Source: Haloterrigena salifodinae
GTDB taxonomy: Archaea; Halobacteriota; Halobacteria; Halobacteriales; Natrialbaceae
Direction: 5' to 3'
DNA length: 46,512 nt
Assembly: GCF_003977755.1 (NCBI RefSeq)
Contig: NZ_RQWN01000009.1
Coordinates: 1 to 46,512, forward strand
The translations under genes were made by a program, and so were the position numbers. The stretch's first letter is position 1. Each line of letters opens with the position of its first letter. The notes beneath the pieces are model-generated. The model was given only the letters and a program-made list of their open reading frames with translations, was not told the DNA's origin and did no database searches. Shown here in pieces: positions 20,231 to 28,288 of the stretch.

Positions 20231-20521
20231 TCAGCTCTTCTTGATAAGAATCTGTCCAGTGCTCTGCACGAGAACGGTGTAGCCGTAGTAGGAGAAGGTG
20301 ATACACCCGGCCTTACCGGCGTTCCCGTCGGTGGATTCAAATGCCGAATCGATCGCCTCTGGATTAATACTGCCGCTCAGCGGCGGGAGATCCTCCGGAT
20401 GCTCGTTTTCGTACTCCGCAATCGCCTGCACGATACGATCACTCGCCCACTCCTCCCCGGACCAGTCGTGGTGTAAGTGATGCGTCGGTCGGTCGGCCGC
20501 CGAGTCTACGGCACTACTCAT
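20231..20521 (-). CDS. HalOD1-domain protein
   Basis: A 96-residue protein that is essentially one halobacterial output domain 1: RIVQAIAEYENEHPEDLPPL, then SINPEAIDSAF, then TFSYYGYTVLVQSTGQILI. HalOD1 is usually the output part of sensor proteins or a free-standing small protein; its partners are not established. It is the first gene of a probable two-gene operon with the aldehyde oxidoreductase (21-base gap). A TATA element lies 55-63 bases upstream. Confidence 0.88.
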   Translation of the reverse strand: MSSAVDSAADRPTHHLHHDWSGEEWASDRIVQAIAEYENEHPEDLPPLSGSINPEAIDSAFESTDGNAGKAGCITFSYYGYTVLVQSTGQILIKKS

Positions 20522-20882: not shown

Positions 20883-21539
20883 TCAGTCGAGATCTTCGTC
20901 CATCAACGTCGCGGAGATCAGGTTCCGCATCCCGCGTCGAAGCCGACCGCTCATCGCGGTCGAGGAGACGCCGACTTCGTCGGCAACACCGCTGAGGGCC
21001 GTGTCTCGTGGCTCGTTGAAATATCCGCACTTGTACGCCGTTTGCAGTGCTTCGATCTGTTCGTCCGTCAGTCCGAACAAAACGTCCTCTTTGGCCCCCG
21101 TGCTCCCGTGTATCTCGATGATTTCGAACATCATCCCACACTCTTCGGCAAACTTCCAGATCGTATTGAGCGCTTCTCGGTCCGGGAGCTGTAACTGGAC
21201 AAACCATCCGCGGCGTCTGGTTTCCGTCCGTAACATGAACCCGTTCACTTCCGTGAGGATCGGACTCAGTAATATCGTTCCGTCCGGATGTTCGATATAG
21301 TAGATGAACGTGTCGTCGTTCGCATCGATGAGTTCGTAACTGTCGACGGTCGGATCAGAATCGAGGTGACGCTCCAGTTCGTCGCGGTCGTCGTACCTGA
21401 TGAGAAACGGAAAAACGTCCGAATCCGGGTCGGTGTTCGCCTGCGTTATTACTTCGATCTCGATACCATCTACACTCCGTAATGTCGGGACCAGAGCGAG
21501 TTCGTCGTGTTCGGCGTAGGCTTTTACGGTGATAGGCAT
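20883..21539 (-). CDS. Bat-type HTH transcriptional regulator
   Basis: A 218-residue protein of the haloarchaeal bat-like family. Residues 1-150 form the beta-rich sensory domain (starts MPITVKAYAEHDELALVPTL). The C-terminal HTH_10 domain is LTDEQIEALQTAYKCGYFNE, then GVADEVGVSSTAMSGRLRRG. The start is the first ATG. It lies upstream of the HalOD1-AOR operon on the same strand with a 361-base AT-rich gap between, and is a natural candidate for its control, though no binding site is known. An upstream TATA-like CTTATATGC lies about 120 bases before the ATG. Confidence 0.93.
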   Translation of the reverse strand: MPITVKAYAEHDELALVPTLRSVDGIEIEVITQANTDPDSDVFPFLIRYDDRDELERHLDSDPTVDSYELIDANDDTFIYYIEHPDGTILLSPILTEVNGFMLRTETRRRGWFVQLQLPDREALNTIWKFAEECGMMFEIIEIHGSTGAKEDVLFGLTDEQIEALQTAYKCGYFNEPRDTALSGVADEVGVSSTAMSGRLRRGMRNLISATLMDEDLD

Positions 21540-21747: not shown

Positions 21748-22377
21748 ATGGCGAACGACACCGGAGGCTGTAAGATCGATCGGGTTGCCCGAGAGCGGAA
21801 ACTCGACGACCTCGATCAGCGACTCCTCGAGCGCCGGGACGCGGGAGCCAGTCTCCGCGACCTCGAAACGTATCACAATCGGCAAGTGCTCGAAGCGGCG
21901 GTGAACGAATCGGACATGGAGACGCTGGAGGGTGAAGTCGAGAACCTCTACCGCCTGCTTACCGACGATGACGTGAGCGTCGGAACGCGAGTCGAAGCGC
22001 GGTCTCGACTCGAACGGAACGGCATCGATCCGGACGCAGTCACGGACGACTTCGTTAGTTACCAGACCGTTCGGACGCATCTCAACGACTGTCTCGACGT
22101 CGACACCGAGCGAACCACGCGAATCGATCGGACCAACGCAAAGAACGTCGTCTTCAAATTACTGTCCCGAACCGAGTCGATCACCATGCGAACGATCGAT
22201 CGACTCCGCTCGAGCGGTCTCCTAACGATCGGCGACCCGGAAGTCACGCTGAGTCTGCGCGTCGCATGTACGGAATGCGGTGAGGAGTACACGTTTGCCC
22301 GCCTCGTGGATCGGGGACGCTGTTCGTGCCGAGAGGACGGTCGAACCGCTGTTCGGGACGATGAGACCGACGCGTGA
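21748..22377 (+). CDS. rdfA: Rod-determining factor RdfA
   Basis: A 209-residue protein matching the haloarchaeal RdfA family: an N-terminal helical domain (KIDRVARERKLDDLDQRLLE, then RRDAGASLRDLETYHN), a central DDxSVGTRVEARSRLERNGID segment (in outline), and a C-terminal zinc ribbon CTECGEEYTFARLVDRGRCSC (outline; C-x2-C and C-x-C). In Haloferax, RdfA is needed for rod-shaped cells. Here, as is usual, the gene precedes an SMC-related ATPase gene on the same strand (201-base gap). A TATA-like AAAATAAATGG about 27-35 bases before the ATG fits a leaderless transcript. Confidence 0.9.
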   Translation: MANDTGGCKIDRVARERKLDDLDQRLLERRDAGASLRDLETYHNRQVLEAAVNESDMETLEGEVENLYRLLTDDDVSVGTRVEARSRLERNGIDPDAVTDDFVSYQTVRTHLNDCLDVDTERTTRIDRTNAKNVVFKLLSRTESITMRTIDRLRSSGLLTIGDPEVTLSLRVACTECGEEYTFARLVDRGRCSCREDGRTAVRDDETDA

Positions 22378-22578
22378 TCGTCGTGCGGCATCACGAGTAC
22401 GGAGCGGGTTTCGACGTCGGCGGTCGGCCGACGATAGCGGATCGTTGTACATACGGTTCTCCGCTATCGTGAACGTATTATTCGGCCAAACGATTATATA
22501 GGATACGGTCATCATCTACCGTCGCGCGGCCTAATCAACCCGCTGTGCCCTACCGATGCATCGGTCGTTCGCCCATCC

Positions 22579-24516
22579 ATGTTTGTAAACAGCCCTGAAT
22601 CGGAGTCGGAAAGCGAGTTCGAGGAATTACACATCACCGTCCAGAACGTTGGTGGAATTACCGACGGCGAACTGACGCTCTCACCTGGAGTGACGCTGCT
22701 CTCGGGGGAGAATGCATCGAACAAGTCGTCGTTCCTTCGCGGACTGGCTGCCGTACTCGGCGGACCCACGCCGCCGATAAAGAGCGACGCAGATCGCGGA
22801 CGTGTGACACTTCGAACGGACGAGAACGAGTACTTCCTGGAGTTGTCGAACGAAAACGGCGATCCGATCGTCACCGACGCGGAGCGGTTCTCCGATCGGA
22901 CTGACCTCTGTGAACTGTTCGTTGCACTTGGAGAAACGAATCCGATCAGGCAGCGACTCCTCACGGACGGGGACCTGTACGAACTCCTGATGCGGCCCGT
23001 CGATACCGCGGAAATCGAGGCCGATATCGAGCGGCTGAAAGAGCGAAAGGATCGGCTCGACGAGCGACTCGTGGAGTTAGATCGGTCCGAGGACCGACTC
23101 CCGACGCTGCGGACGCGAGCGACGACCCTGCGCGAGGACCGCGAGGAGATCGAGACGGCCCTCCGCGAGAAGCGCGAGGCGATCGACGAGCGGGACGCGG
23201 AGACCGACGGCAACGACGTCCTCGACGACCTCAAGGAGAAGCGATCGGAGCGCGAGTCCGTTCGCGATCGGATCGAAACGCAACGAGAGGCGATCCGCTC
23301 GCTGGAGGACGAGCTCGAGGCTGTCCGCGAGCAGCGCGACGAACCTGGAACGGCGGAGTCGTCGCGGGACGTCGATGCGATCGAGAGCGAAATCGAGGGC
23401 CTCCACCATCAGAAACAGCAGTTGACGAGTACGATCAACGCGTTGAGCCCGATCGTCGAGATGAACGACCAGCTGCTGGACGACGAGCGAGAGATCCCCG
23501 AGGAGATGAAATCGGACGAGATCGTCGCCGAACTCGATCCCGCGTCGCGGACGATCACCTGTTGGACGTGTGGTTCCACCGTCGAACGGGAAGAGATCGC
23601 CGAGCAAGTGCGGGTGGTCCAGGAGATCATCCGAGAAAAGCGACAGCAACGCGAAACGATCACAGAGCGGATACGATCGCTCGAGGAGGAGAAACGCCAG
23701 CTCGAACGACAGCGTGACGACCGCGAGCGACTCGCCGAGAAAGAGCGGTCGATCGAAGCCGAGATCGACCGGCGAGAAGAAACGCTGAGCGAGCTACGGG
23801 ACGAGAAAGCGGCGCTCGATGACGAGATCGAATCGCTTCAAGCGGACGCCGAAACGCTCGACGAACGGGACGACGAACTGCTCGAACTCCATGGCGAGGT
23901 GAGCGACCTCGAGTACGAACGCGGGCAGCTCGAGAACGAGTTGACCGAACTCGAACGGGAGATCGAGGAGCTCGAGGCGGAACTCGAGAACCGCGACGAT
24001 CTCGAGGCGGAGCGCGAGTCGGTCGCGACGCGGCTGCGAGAGCAGCGAGAGCAGATCGAGACGCTCGAGCGCGACCTCGTCACGACGTTCAACGAATCGA
24101 TGCAGCAGGTCCTCGACGTACTGGACTACGAGAACGTCGAGCGCGTCTGGATCGAACGGCTCGCGGGAGATGGTGACGCACCGTCGGCGACCGACTTCGA
24201 GTTGCATATCGTTCGCTCGAACGAGAGCGGCGCCGCGTACGAAGACACGGTCGACAGCCTGAGCAAGAGCGAGCGCGAGGTGATCGGGCTCGTCGTCGCC
24301 TTCGCGGGCTATCTCGTTCACGACGTCGCGAGCGAACTACCGGTGGTCGTCATCGACGCCGTCGAAATGCTCGACGCGGACCGGATCCGCGGTCTGCTGG
24401 ACTACTTCGAGGATCACACCGAGTACGTCGTCGCCGCCGTCCTTCCCGAGGAGGCGAGGGAACTCGAGGAGACGTATCCGACGATATCGACCGCTACCTT
24501 CGCTGCCCGTTCGTGA
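22579..24516 (+). CDS. Archaea-specific SMC-related ATPase with CxxC hook
   Basis: A 645-residue SMC/Rad50-like protein. The N-terminal ATPase lobe has GGITDGELTLSPGVTLLSGE and a Walker A variant GENASNKSSF (about 49-58). Long coiled coils flank a central CWTCG (Cys328 and Cys331), the position of the Rad50 zinc hook. The C-terminal lobe has a signature-like SLSKSEREVIGL and Walker B VVVIDAVEML. It is smaller than true SMC or Rad50 (about 900-1200 residues). It follows rdfA, a conserved pair in haloarchaea linked to cell shape. It ends 47 bases from the convergent folCP gene; a palindrome GTAAGCTTAC (24528-24537) lies between them. A TATA element GATTATATAGG is at 22491-22501. Confidence 0.92.
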   Translation: MFVNSPESESESEFEELHITVQNVGGITDGELTLSPGVTLLSGENASNKSSFLRGLAAVLGGPTPPIKSDADRGRVTLRTDENEYFLELSNENGDPIVTDAERFSDRTDLCELFVALGETNPIRQRLLTDGDLYELLMRPVDTAEIEADIERLKERKDRLDERLVELDRSEDRLPTLRTRATTLREDREEIETALREKREAIDERDAETDGNDVLDDLKEKRSERESVRDRIETQREAIRSLEDELEAVREQRDEPGTAESSRDVDAIESEIEGLHHQKQQLTSTINALSPIVEMNDQLLDDEREIPEEMKSDEIVAELDPASRTITCWTCGSTVEREEIAEQVRVVQEIIREKRQQRETITERIRSLEEEKRQLERQRDDRERLAEKERSIEAEIDRREETLSELRDEKAALDDEIESLQADAETLDERDDELLELHGEVSDLEYERGQLENELTELEREIEELEAELENRDDLEAERESVATRLREQREQIETLERDLVTTFNESMQQVLDVLDYENVERVWIERLAGDGDAPSATDFELHIVRSNESGAAYEDTVDSLSKSEREVIGLVVAFAGYLVHDVASELPVVVIDAVEMLDADRIRGLLDYFEDHTEYVVAAVLPEEARELEETYPTISTATFAARS

Positions 24517-24563: not shown

Positions 24564-26987
24564 CTAGTATCGAGCGTCCGCCGTGCGGACCGTCCGAACC
24601 GCGGCGACGTTTTCGGGGACGTCGTGAACCCTGACGATGTCGGCGCCGCGTTCGGCTGCCATGGTCGTCACCGCGAGCGTTGGCGGTAATCGCTCGCCGG
24701 ACGGGCAGCCGACGCGGTCGAACATCGATTTCCGGGAGTGGCCCACCATGACCGGACACCCCAGCGCGCGCAACTCGTCGGTCCTGGCGGCCAACTCGAA
24801 GCTCTCGGCGGGGTCCTTTCCGAAGCCGAGTCCGGGGTCGACGACGATCTGATCCCGGTCGAGTCCCGCGCGTTCCGCGAGTAACACCGTCTCCGAGAGT
24901 TCGTGCAGGACGTCTTCGACGACGTCGTCGTAGGTGGCGGTTCGGTCGGGATCGACGGGCGTCTCGAGGCTGTGCATGACGACGAGCGACGCGTCGTGGT
25001 CGGCCGCGACGAAGCGCATCTCCGGATCCTCGAGTCCGGAGACGTCGTTGACGATGTCTGCGCCTGCCTCGAGGGCGGCGTCGGCGACCGCGGCTTTCCG
25101 CGTGTCGACCGAGATCGGGACGTCCAGGTCCTCGATGCGTTCGATGACCGGGACGACGCGGTCGATTTCCTCGGCGACCGAGACCGGCTCGGCGCCGGGG
25201 CGGGTGCTCTCACCGCCGATATCGACGATATCCGCGCCGGCGGCGACCATCTCTCGGGCTCGCCGGACCGCGTCCGGCACGCGGTCGTACTCTCCTCCGT
25301 CGTAGAAACTGTCTGGCGTGACGTTCAGGATGCCCATGACTGCGGGGGTTTGATCCCACGGATACCGATCGCGATCGGCTCGGTCGTCGACGCGATCGTC
25401 GATCGTTTGCCGGAGCTGGGCGGCGACGTGGGCGAGTCCGCGGTCGGCGTCGGTCAGTTCCGCAAGCAGGTCCCGGAACTGCGACGACGTCCCGGAGAGG
25501 ACCGTCGCGACGCGGCGACCGGCCGTCTCGGCGTCCGAACGGACGCACGTTCCGCCGATCGCCTCGAACGCCCGTTCGACGCGCTCGGCCTGCGGACCGC
25601 GCAGATAGGTCTTGATCGTTCGATGGACGGTCTCGTCCGCGACGGACTCGGCAGTCTCCGCGTCGACGGCCGCGCTTGTGAGGACGTTCCGCGCCTGCTC
25701 CGTCGCGGCCGTTCGCTTCGGGATCTGAAGCCGCGTCCACCGGTCGCGCGCTTCGGCGACTGCGTATAGCGAGCCGGTGACGAGGACGCAGTCGTCTTCG
25801 TCGGCCGCCGACAGCGCCCGCTCGGTCGCCTCGAGAACGGACCCGGCGCGGTCGATCGTCGCCGCCCGATCGTCGAACGCGGATGCAAGGGCGGCCGTAT
25901 CCTCGGCACGAGGCACGTCCGGTTCACAGAGGTAGAGCGCATCCGGGGACGGCAACGCCGTCGCCATGCCCCGGTGGTCTTTCTCCCGCATCGCGCCGAA
26001 GACGAGATGGAGGTCGTCGAACGAGTATCGGTCGACGAGCGAGGCGAGCGTCTCGCAGGCGCCCGGATTGTGCGCGCCGTCGAGGATCGCGAGCGGCGCC
26101 GTCGACATGACTTCGAACCGGCCTGGCCAGTAGGCGTCGCGGAGACCGCGCGCGATCGATTCCGGATCGACGCCGGCGACCTGATCGGCCAGCGTCGCCG
26201 CGACACCGGCGTTGGTCGCCTGATGGGAGCCCACGAGCGGCAGCCGCGTCTCGAGCGACCACTTCGGTCCCGCGATCGAAACCTCGCTCTCGATCGGCGA
26301 TGCCAGCCCGTGCTCGCGGGTGATCACGTCCGCATCGTCGCTTCCAACGGTAATCACGTCCGTCTCCGAACGGATCGCCTCGAGGGCCGCCTCCGACGCG
26401 CCGGTCACCAGCGGCGCATCAGCTGGCGCGACCTGCGCCTTGTCGCGGGCGATCTCCTCGATCGTGTCGCCGAGGATGTCGGTGTGTTCCAGCGAGACGC
26501 TGGTCACGGCGCTCGCGACGGGATCGACGGCGCTCGTCGCGTCGTATCGGCCGCCGATGCCGACCTCGAGGACGGCGACGTCGACGTCCTCGGCGGCGAA
26601 GTGGTGGAGCGCAAGCGCTGTGAGAACCTCGAAGTAGGTCGGCGTGTCGTCCGCCTCGCGGAGCCGTTCGATGCAGTCGTCGATTTCGGCGACGAATTCC
26701 CGGACCCGCTGTTTCGGAATTTTCCGGCCGTTGATCTGAATCCGTTCGCGCAGATCGTTTAGATCAGGCGACGTATAGAGGCCGACATCGAGTCCGGCGT
26801 CGCGAAGAATCCGTTCGAGCATGCATCCGGTGCTTCCCTTCCCGTTCGATCCGGCGATCTGGACACAGTCGAGGTCCTCGTGCGGACGATCGAGATACGT
26901 GAGCAACGCGGCGGTCGTTTCCGTTCCGAGCTTGGGTCGACGCCGCTGTAGCGACTCGAGGTAGTCGACCGACTCGTGATACTCCAT
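24564..26987 (-). CDS. folCP: Bifunctional folylpolyglutamate synthase / dihydropteroate synthase
   Basis: An 807-residue fusion. The N-terminal FolC part has the ATP loop IAGSNGKGSTGCM, DLNDLRERIQING, EVGIGGRYDATS, EHTDILG and LDGAHNPGA. A linker of about 100 residues (around 410-520) follows. The C-terminal FolP part has MGILNVTPDSF, GGESTRPGAEPVS, DIVNDVSG, VVDPGLGFGK and GHSRKSM. It joins p-aminobenzoate to the pterin and adds glutamate tails to folate. This fusion order is known in haloarchaea. The ATG at 26987 (MEYHESVDYLESLQ) is chosen because the 40 codons upstream are outside the family and overlap the divergent alaX promoter. It supplies the folate cofactor for the neighbouring one-carbon enzymes. 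Confidence 0.95.
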   Translation of the reverse strand: MEYHESVDYLESLQRRRPKLGTETTAALLTYLDRPHEDLDCVQIAGSNGKGSTGCMLERILRDAGLDVGLYTSPDLNDLRERIQINGRKIPKQRVREFVAEIDDCIERLREADDTPTYFEVLTALALHHFAAEDVDVAVLEVGIGGRYDATSAVDPVASAVTSVSLEHTDILGDTIEEIARDKAQVAPADAPLVTGASEAALEAIRSETDVITVGSDDADVITREHGLASPIESEVSIAGPKWSLETRLPLVGSHQATNAGVAATLADQVAGVDPESIARGLRDAYWPGRFEVMSTAPLAILDGAHNPGACETLASLVDRYSFDDLHLVFGAMREKDHRGMATALPSPDALYLCEPDVPRAEDTAALASAFDDRAATIDRAGSVLEATERALSAADEDDCVLVTGSLYAVAEARDRWTRLQIPKRTAATEQARNVLTSAAVDAETAESVADETVHRTIKTYLRGPQAERVERAFEAIGGTCVRSDAETAGRRVATVLSGTSSQFRDLLAELTDADRGLAHVAAQLRQTIDDRVDDRADRDRYPWDQTPAVMGILNVTPDSFYDGGEYDRVPDAVRRAREMVAAGADIVDIGGESTRPGAEPVSVAEEIDRVVPVIERIEDLDVPISVDTRKAAVADAALEAGADIVNDVSGLEDPEMRFVAADHDASLVVMHSLETPVDPDRTATYDDVVEDVLHELSETVLLAERAGLDRDQIVVDPGLGFGKDPAESFELAARTDELRALGCPVMVGHSRKSMFDRVGCPSGERLPPTLAVTTMAAERGADIVRVHDVPENVAAVRTVRTADARY

Positions 26988-27057
26988 ACCACACGTGCCA
27001 CCGGCGACTTCATTAATGTGTCGCCGCACCGGCGCCTCCGCACGGTTTATAACGATG

Positions 27058-27076
27058 TGTGCCGACAGTCGGCACA
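27058..27076 (+). promoter_or_regulatory. Perfect palindrome touching the alaX start codon
   Basis: TGTGCCGAC-A-GTCGGCACA is a nine-base perfect inverted repeat that ends directly before the ATG at 27077. A TATA element GTTTATAACG lies at 27043-27052, so transcription should start inside or at the end of the palindrome. It could be an operator for repression of alaX, or of the divergent folCP promoter 71 bases away. Confidence 0.5.
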
Positions 27077-28288
27077 ATGGCTTCCGAATCGAGAGACAAT
27101 CGCGCACCGGACGAGCCGTACGTGACGGAGTTCGAGGCGGCGGTGCGGTCCGTCGACGGGACCGACGTTCGGCTCGAGGAGACGTACTTCTACGCCGAAG
27201 GCGGCGGCCAACCGGCCGATCGCGGGACGCTGAACGGGATCGATGTCGTCGACGTGCAGATGCGCGACGGCGAGACCGTCCACACGCTGGCGACGGCGCC
27301 CGACTTCGAGACGGGCGACGACGTGTCCGGCTCGATCGACGAGGAGTTCCGGACCTACTGTATGCGAGCGCACACCGCCAGTCACGCGCTATACGGTGCC
27401 GGTCGCGAACTGTTCGACGACCACGGCTACGGCGGCTTCGACATCGACGCGGAGAAGGGCCGCATCGACTTCGAGACCAATCGCGACCCGGACGAGGTGA
27501 ACGCGCTCACCCTCCAGCGGATGGTCAACGAGGTCGTCTGGGAGTCGAGAGACGTTTCCTGGCGGGAGATGGACGCAGCGCAGGCGCGGGACCGCGACGA
27601 GATCGTCTTCAACGAAACCGGCGCGGCCGAGACGACCGATACCGTCCGCATCGTCGAGATCGACGACTGGGACATCGCCGCCTGCGGCGGGACGCACGTC
27701 GAAAACACCGTCGAGATCGGCCCCGTCAAGGTCCTCGAGGTATCGAACCCCGGATCGGGCCTCGTACGCGTCGAGTACGCGGTCGGCCCAACCGCCGTTC
27801 GCGCGCAACTCGACGAGACGCGAGCCGCGACTCGCGCCGCCCGGACGCTGGAGACGAGCGTCGAGGAACTTCCGGAGCGAGCGACCGCCGTCGTCGAAGA
27901 GAACGCGACCCTCGAGGCGGAGGTCGACACCCTGCGCGACCGCCTGCTCGAGGAACGCCTCGAGTCGTTGGGCGACGACACCGTCTCGAAGGACGGCGAG
28001 GAGTGGATCGTCGGCGAGCTCGATATCGACGGCATCGGTCCCAACGACGTGTCAGAACGCGTACGGGCGCTCGCGGGCGATATCGGTGACGTGGTCGCGC
28101 TGACCGGCGTGAACGGAAGCGCGTTCGTGGTCGTCGGCACGACCGGCGAGACGGACGCGAGCGAACTCGTCGACGACGTCACGGCGACGTTCGGCGGCGG
28201 TGGCGGCGGCGGACCGACGTTCGCACAGGGTGGCGGTCTCGAAGACGACCCGGCCGCCGTCGTCGACTACCTCCGAACGGAGGCCTGA
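27077..28288 (+). CDS. alaX: Alanyl-tRNA editing protein AlaX (large form)
   Basis: A 403-residue trans-editing protein that removes mischarged Ser or Gly from tRNA-Ala. Zinc site: His99 and His103 (RAHTASHALYG) with Cys203 and His207 (CGGTHV). The N-terminal glycine-rich loop FYAEGGGQPADRG is present. A coiled coil (about 262-300) leads to a C-terminal DHHA1 domain ending in a run of glycines and PTFAQGGG, as in the AlaX-L form and in AlaRS. The ATG at 27077 is preferred over the in-frame GTG at 27059, because a leaderless start after the TATA box fits. A broken copy lies at 11937-12935. The gene is divergent from folCP. Confidence 0.93.
   Translation: MASESRDNRAPDEPYVTEFEAAVRSVDGTDVRLEETYFYAEGGGQPADRGTLNGIDVVDVQMRDGETVHTLATAPDFETGDDVSGSIDEEFRTYCMRAHTASHALYGAGRELFDDHGYGGFDIDAEKGRIDFETNRDPDEVNALTLQRMVNEVVWESRDVSWREMDAAQARDRDEIVFNETGAAETTDTVRIVEIDDWDIAACGGTHVENTVEIGPVKVLEVSNPGSGLVRVEYAVGPTAVRAQLDETRAATRAARTLETSVEELPERATAVVEENATLEAEVDTLRDRLLEERLESLGDDTVSKDGEEWIVGELDIDGIGPNDVSERVRALAGDIGDVVALTGVNGSAFVVVGTTGETDASELVDDVTATFGGGGGGGPTFAQGGGLEDDPAAVVDYLRTEA

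Follow-up and report, generated by a model that had tools for sequence, protein, structure and literature searches.

A plasmid-borne RdfA–Sph gene pair of Haloterrigena salifodinae: conserved zinc hook and missing Walker B glutamate in Sph

In Haloferax volcanii, cell shape depends on the neighbouring genes rdfA (hvo_2174), sph3 (hvo_2175) and ddfA (hvo_2176). Deletion of rdfA or sph3 leaves disk cells only, and deletion of ddfA leaves rods only (PMC10869688). In the same study, 42 of 54 RdfA-family genes from 24 genomes adjoined an SMC-like gene. All four Sph paralogues of H. volcanii matter in gene conversion and have opposite effects on shape (PMC11276520). Sph proteins were included in the archaea-specific SMC-related proteins (ASRPs) as defined in PMC9389158, where a zinc-hook motif was reported for the vast majority of the family and a zinc-linked dimer was inferred. 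The RdfA–Sph pairing, the zinc hook and the shape role of one paralogue were thus known. Here, an RdfA–Sph pair of Haloterrigena salifodinae is described. It lies on a single contig of 46,512 bases (NCBI RefSeq assembly GCF_003977755.1, NZ_RQWN01000009.1), called the window in the following, within a genome of 4.96 Mb. Three observations go beyond the literature on Sph that was examined: the absence of the catalytic glutamate together with the frequent replacement of the Walker A lysine, a separate plasmid clade with HTH_10 and HalOD1 neighbours, and matching trees of RdfA and Sph.

The RdfA–Sph pair of the window

The first-pass annotation had placed RdfA next to an SMC-like protein with a hook. 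This was borne out by the coordinates of the open reading frames (ORFs) and by both family profiles.

21748-22377, plus strand: RdfA-family protein, 209 amino acids (PF21811, 207.1 bits, cut-off 27)
22579-24516, plus strand: Sph, an ASRP of 645 amino acids (NF045487, 585.3 bits)

The RdfA match spans positions 1-195 of the 195 positions of the Pfam profile and lies above its curated cut-off. The Sph match runs over positions 1-593 of the 593-position NCBIfam profile for ASRPs, with a cut-off of 300 bits. Against the Rad50_Halo profile, Sph reached only 37.8 bits at a cut-off of 1000, and is not a Rad50 by this measure. It is 100% identical to the protein encoded at positions 207215-209149 of NZ_CP069192.1, plasmid pHTS280.6 of Haloterrigena salifodinae, on which RefSeq names a 'rod-determining factor RdfA' beside an 'archaea-specific SMC-related protein'.

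Sequence comparisons took in haloarchaea other than H. volcanii and, outside these, methanogens. The Sph sample was drawn mostly from the best matches of the searches, supplemented by hand-picked lower ones. After removal of ORFs shorter than 560 amino acids or below 150 bits, and of copies with identical C-terminal letters, 121 distinct haloarchaeal Sph were counted. The 90 RdfA-centred loci comprised 30 from a genome search (1.5 kb flank only) and 60 hand-picked from the listed matches. RdfA, HalOD1 and HTH_10 were detected in these loci by profiles built from the window's own proteins.

The 121 haloarchaeal Sph were monophyletic with respect to four methanogen ASRPs (support 0.993), and the clade containing the window's Sph had a support of 1.0. 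Judged by sequence, the window pair is a plasmid-borne paralogue of the haloarchaeal RdfA–Sph pair. Relatives of RdfA or Sph were not found among viral contigs. A search of solved structures gave no match for RdfA at an E-value of 10, and seven for Sph, consisting of coiled coils and a marginal Rad50. The RdfA structure predicted with five sequences had a mean predicted local distance difference test score (pLDDT) of 69.7; none of its 64 PDB matches in a fold search reached an E-value of 0.001, and no fold was recognised. A scan for bacterial-type promoters returned nothing.

Zinc hook and ATP site of Sph

The motifs of Sph considered below are:

23560-23571, plus strand: zinc-hook motif CWTC, residues 328-331 (CxxC in 121/121 haloarchaeal Sph)
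22705-22731, plus strand: Walker A GENASNKSS, residues 43-51 (lysine kept, sixth glycine replaced by asparagine)
24259-24279, plus strand: ABC signature region LSKSERE, residues 561-567, without the GG of LSGGE
24343-24360, plus strand: Walker B VVVIDA, residues 589-594 (Asp593 kept, Ala594 at the place of the catalytic glutamate)

Canonical SMC, Rad50 and ABC ATPases carry a catalytic glutamate directly after the Walker B aspartate. This residue was present in none of the 119 scorable haloarchaeal Sph. Its place is taken by serine (95), alanine (14), glycine (5) or arginine (5), and two more sequences are gapped. In the window's Sph, Ala594 stands where an active ATPase of the SMC superfamily would have the glutamate. 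The Walker A lysine is replaced by arginine in 96 of the 121 proteins, and the signature reads LSESE, LSKSE or LSEGE in 116 of them, compared with the canonical LSGGE. The combined Walker A and B states mostly track clades: arginine with serine occurs in 94 proteins (plus two gapped) and lysine with alanine in the 14 of the window's clade; the remainder have lysine with glycine or arginine (10) or with serine (one). Two Haloferax-type Sph have GRNEADRTP (L227, 4038-6182) and AGDAADRTS (L228, 4091-6202) at the Walker A columns, both badly off the motif, and keep CWTC.

The Walker A motif had been called degenerate in the first-pass annotation. This applies to its sixth position, asparagine instead of glycine; the lysine and serine of GENASNKSS are intact. 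The non-canonical signature LSKSE and Walker B VVVIDA had been overlooked. Rad50 of the same genome, used as a control, has GVNGSGKST, CPEC, LSGGER and LILDEP, and the SMC protein of that genome has DE; the change of motifs is therefore specific to Sph. The Walker B aspartate (Asp593) and the signature glutamate (Glu565) are kept in 119 of 121 Sph, which fits ATP binding without efficient hydrolysis. The available parts of PMC9389158 treat the Walker A and B motifs without mentioning the missing glutamate.

The hook is a single CWTC, located centrally and resembling the Rad50 zinc hook, as had been proposed. Sph has only three cysteines (111, 328 and 331), two of them in the hook. C328, W329, C331 and G332 are among just 21 positions conserved to at least 97% in the 121 haloarchaeal Sph, and the second letter is tryptophan in 120 of them. 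Lack of conservation of the CxxC had been named beforehand as the observation that would refute the proposal; the cysteine pair is present in every haloarchaeal Sph of the sample. With the hook letters among the 21 most conserved positions, such constancy is far from chance. The four methanogen ASRPs that were aligned have CPFC, CILC, CPLC and CPVC, where for two of the four the presence of CxxC had helped to choose the ORF. In a structure predicted with five sequences (mean pLDDT 63.6), helices 144-301 and 337-515 flank the hook and are mostly confident, in agreement with the long coiled coils expected; the hook hairpin has low confidence, and the head is unreliable. Zinc binding and dimerization of Sph would be predicted from the cysteine pair.

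Linkage to RdfA, methanogen relatives and plasmid neighbours

RdfA matches were found in 122 of 145 sampled genomes of the order, and Sph was encoded within 700 bp at 61 of the 90 RdfA-centred loci. Among 104 complete pairs, RdfA lies upstream of Sph on the same strand in 78 and downstream in 15; on opposite strands it lies upstream in seven and downstream in four. Since all four arrangements occur, the pairing survives rearrangement. Tree distances of RdfA and Sph were correlated with a Mantel r of 0.92 over the 104 pairs (reached by 0 of 999 shuffles, of which the best gave 0.27), with 0.893 inside the arginine/serine group (79 pairs) and with 0.943 inside the window's clade (14 pairs, best shuffle 0.795). 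This clade was monophyletic in both trees, with supports of 0.997 and 0.973. RdfA and Sph would be expected to contact each other. RdfA also carries a conserved quartet of cysteines:

22267-22329, plus strand: C-terminal CxxC...CxC cysteines of RdfA (C174, C177, C192 and C194)

These were kept in 99, 99, 99 and 93 of 102 haloarchaeal RdfA, respectively, which suggests a zinc ribbon.

Outside the window's order, RdfA was matched in one of 66 genomes of the phylum sample, on a contig of 163,915 bases. A 3.3 kb stretch of this contig is identical to the Methanohalobium evestigatum plasmid NC_014254.1, which has the gene order ASRP, RdfA (35.7 bits, cut-off 27; named rdfA in RefSeq) and a winged-helix gene. 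The Methanomethylovorans hollandica plasmid NC_019972.1 has the same order of ASRP, RdfA-like 'hypothetical protein' and winged-helix gene, with the RdfA-like protein at 26.5 bits, just below the cut-off of 27. Literature naming RdfA together with Methanohalobium was not found in one paper search. The RdfA-linked ASRPs of both plasmids keep the Walker A Gly-Lys and a Walker B with DE, and they join all haloarchaeal Sph with a support of 0.985 in a tree rooted on two other methanogen ASRPs. On the simplest reading, the pair would be older than the glutamate loss. The winged-helix gene (HTH_45) that follows ASRP and RdfA on both plasmids (L116, 7156-7641; L140, 5564-6061) may be a third member of the unit.

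A second class of methanogen ASRPs, from two different families, is encoded away from RdfA (L138, 2501-4417, genome G354; L139, 3847-5823, genome G340). In these two genomes, RdfA was matched solely on the plasmid of G354. The Walker B of this class has DD or DN. Its neighbours encode an AAA ATPase, proteins without a known family and a protein with a PAPS-reductase domain; near the L138 ASRP, the last of these has BrxP/SspD/DndC-like PADLOC matches. The class might belong to a DNA-modification or defence cluster.

Upstream of the window pair, two further genes are encoded on the opposite strand:

20883-21539, minus strand: HTH_10 regulator, divergent (PF04967, 57.6 bits)
20231-20521, minus strand: HalOD1 output-domain protein, 96 amino acids (PF18545, 71.1 bits)

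The window's clade has 14 members. HTH_10 was present at all 15 distinct loci of relatives with about 55% identity or more, and HalOD1 at 13 of them, being absent in L206 and L231. These 15 loci consist of 11 (the window and L085 counted as one, L082 and L212 as one) and four further named plasmids. Order or strand of the neighbours is altered in L084, L207, L232 and L233. Neither gene was found beside three clade members at 48-49% identity. The eight best-ranked PLSDB records (at least 55% identity) are complete plasmids of 280-881 kb; two distant members among the 14 lie on contigs of 3.0 and 3.5 Mb (L210 and L208). In the record of the Natrinema sp. SYSU A 869 plasmid, Sph is split across two reading frames (L231, 4807-6764).

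Identity of the window's HalOD1 protein with DdfA was considered and rejected: the DdfA-position gene was only the second-best match in two Haloferax-type genomes, and the own genome, with its 38 HalOD1 matches, contains paralogues that match better. Since HalOD1 is common and the gene at the DdfA position is not the specific nearest relative of the window copy, the arrangement is a parallel and not proof of the same switch. A general link of HalOD1 with RdfA–Sph was rejected as well, with HalOD1 at only two of 60 RdfA-centred loci of 6.5-6.7 kb, both from one genus; the profile for this count was built from the window's clade and may miss distant HalOD1. CsmR was dismissed as a relative of the HTH_10 neighbour; it is a winged-helix protein of 13 kDa.

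Relatives of the four-gene stretch often lie among genes of folate and one-carbon metabolism (window from 24564-28288 onward; L085, L230, L232 and L233). These are folP and a formyltetrahydrofolate deformylase gene on pHTS280.6 and in Halocatena salina, and genes for dihydrofolate reductase and an aminomethyl transferase on Haloarcula and Halorientalis plasmids. The four-gene stretch and these genes may travel as one island. Downstream of Sph, the window has a single ORF of 847 amino acids (24564-27107, minus strand), whose counterpart on pHTS280.6 is annotated as folP, dihydropteroate synthase, of 2424 bp. This ORF may be a fusion of two folate enzymes.

Proposed mechanism and comparison with known systems

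SMC-type proteins are usually understood as ATP-driven machines. For Sph, a different mode of action is slightly favoured, in which a zinc-hooked dimer would bind ATP with little or no hydrolysis and would serve, together with RdfA, as a structural clamp or tether within the architecture of the cell or the chromosome. The chain of Sph would double back on itself as an antiparallel coiled coil, with the ABC-type head and the CWTC hook at opposite ends, and the hooks of two molecules would share one zinc ion to form a homodimer. ATP binding by the heads is most likely retained, as the aspartate of Walker B and large parts of the P-loop are intact. With the usual catalytic glutamate missing, hydrolysis would be slow or absent, which would make Sph a ligand-gated structural clamp or tether rather than a motor. 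As its dedicated partner, RdfA would combine a helical N-terminal part with a zinc ribbon at the C-terminus. For the window pair, a related architectural role in the cell or chromosome is probable, by analogy with the paralogous, rod-making pair of H. volcanii; the HTH_10 and HalOD1 proteins next to it possibly exert control.

Several points weigh against this proposal. The head of the Sph model has low confidence. At 29 of 90 RdfA loci no Sph lies within 700 bp, although three of these have one at 0.9-1.6 kb. The Mantel test leaves shared species history in the correlation, and nearest neighbours matched between the two trees in just 56 of 104 pairs. The lysine-keeping clade of the window nests inside the arginine group (support 0.872; deeper nodes weak), so that a simple single-step origin does not account for the Walker A change. 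The arginine group is then not monophyletic; the lysine of the window's clade may be a return, or arginine may have arisen more than once. The two methanogen ASRPs away from RdfA, which served as root, have aspartate or asparagine at the glutamate place, and the glutamate loss may for this reason predate the shape role or be independent of it. Finally, neither biochemistry on this Sph nor a phenotype for the clade was found in the literature examined.

E596, a glutamate three positions downstream of Asp593 that is present in 107 of 121 Sph, could also substitute for the missing one. With E596 or another residue in this place, Sph might be an active if slow SMC/Rad50-like ATPase, whose ATP cycling drives DNA loops, bridging or repair. 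The conservation of Asp593 and Glu565 would agree with this, as would the lowered survival of all four H. volcanii sph deletions in a gene-conversion assay (PMC11276520). The canonical glutamate is missing from all 119 scorable proteins and the lysine is replaced in 96 of 121, while Rad50 and SMC of the same genome have the glutamate; an active ATPase is regarded as improbable, though worth consideration. Sph might instead be a coiled-coil cytoskeletal scaffold acting without DNA, like arcadin-4 or bacterial coiled-coil-rich proteins. Such a scaffold was suggested in PMC10869688, and a structural role would agree with the missing catalytic residue. Against it, the gene-conversion phenotypes point to DNA, and the literature examined offered neither filaments nor a localisation in its favour; we consider it quite unlikely.

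Scarcely more probable is a device for plasmid maintenance or partition, in which RdfA would bind plasmid DNA and Sph would bridge the copies. The plasmids among the best-ranked PLSDB records, the plasmid-borne pairs of both methanogens and the HTH_10 neighbour at every one of the 15 loci are in line with it. PLSDB is biased, however, because it contains plasmids only, two clade members lie on the megabase-sized contigs mentioned above, and a paralogous pair is a published shape factor (PMC10869688). A defence system composed of an SMC-like sensor and an effector is very improbable: the weak PADLOC matches of Sph to LmuB (best 49.9 bits) cover residues 390-526 of the coiled coil, RdfA had no PADLOC match, the ASRP score is 585 bits, and a nuclease is not annotated within 12 kb on pHTS280.6, for which the gene table is incomplete.

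The preferred reading, a clamp or tether with little or no hydrolysis, can be extended to all haloarchaeal Sph, in a form that we regard as possible but doubtful. They would constitute a hydrolysis-defective branch of SMC proteins with an invariant hook and a co-evolving RdfA. The motor would have been lost on the stem after the split from the plasmid-borne methanogen relatives, which keep it, leaving a locked clamp that sets cell form and the behaviour of chromosome copies, and the window's clade would be its four-gene version on plasmids, under HTH_10/HalOD1 control of its own. If the glutamate was lost branch-wide and the hook stayed constant, the mechanism by which Sph sets cell shape becomes directly testable.

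The H. volcanii locus is among the closest described systems. It shares with the window an RdfA-family gene (HVO_2174) adjoining an Sph gene (Sph3, HVO_2175) and a HalOD1 protein close by (DdfA, HVO_2176). The published order rdfA-sph-HalOD1 was found in two Haloferax-type genomes (L225 and L226), with the HalOD1 gene directly after sph (L225, 7536-7901; L226, 4145-4510). The Sph in this synteny also has the CWTC hook; it differs in its Walker A (GRNATNRTS) and Walker B (DS), is only 34-35% identical to the window's Sph and falls into another clade. The second Sph–RdfA pair of the own genome (L117) is nearer, its Sph being 46.9% identical to the Haloferax-type syntenic Sph. By these comparisons, the window pair is not an orthologue of Sph3/RdfA and forms part of a separate clade, where the Sph3 position was assigned by synteny in two genomes of one genus and the H. 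volcanii sequences themselves were not compared. One of these two genomes, G312, shares 88% DNA identity with a named H. lucentense plasmid, for which two genus mates reach 94%, and its gene order agrees with the assignment. A further difference is that HTH_10 and HalOD1 of the window are encoded upstream, on the strand opposite to the pair.

The first-pass annotation had assigned the pair to a shape system. The H. volcanii pair rdfA/sph3 is indeed needed for rods; for the non-orthologous window pair, a shape role is only a guess, also because Sph paralogues of H. volcanii have opposite shape phenotypes. For the latter reason, 'RdfA next to Sph' does not by itself imply a rod-shape factor. An action at the envelope, also suggested at first, finds no indication in RdfA or Sph. 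Sph3 is described as needed for or promoting the plate (disk) shape in PMC13286277 (2026), and cells without sph3 as disks only in PMC10869688.

Sph2 of Halobacterium salinarum (pNRC200) and Sph1 of Halobacterium sp. GSL-19 (pGSL19_284) belong to the same family, each beside an annotated rdfA. Sph2 is 35.9% identical to the window's Sph and has GRNATGRTS and DS, and Sph1 is 24.2% identical with ASNFQGKSS, DG and the hook CFVC. Coalescin (ClsN), compared by description only, shares the ABC head, coiled coil and zinc hook of the ASRP family, but acts in the chromosome compartments of Sulfolobus, as cited in PMC9389158. Rad50 resembles the window's Sph in architecture and in its CxxC hook; it differs in that its Walker A, signature and Walker B motifs, as read in the same genome, are canonical.

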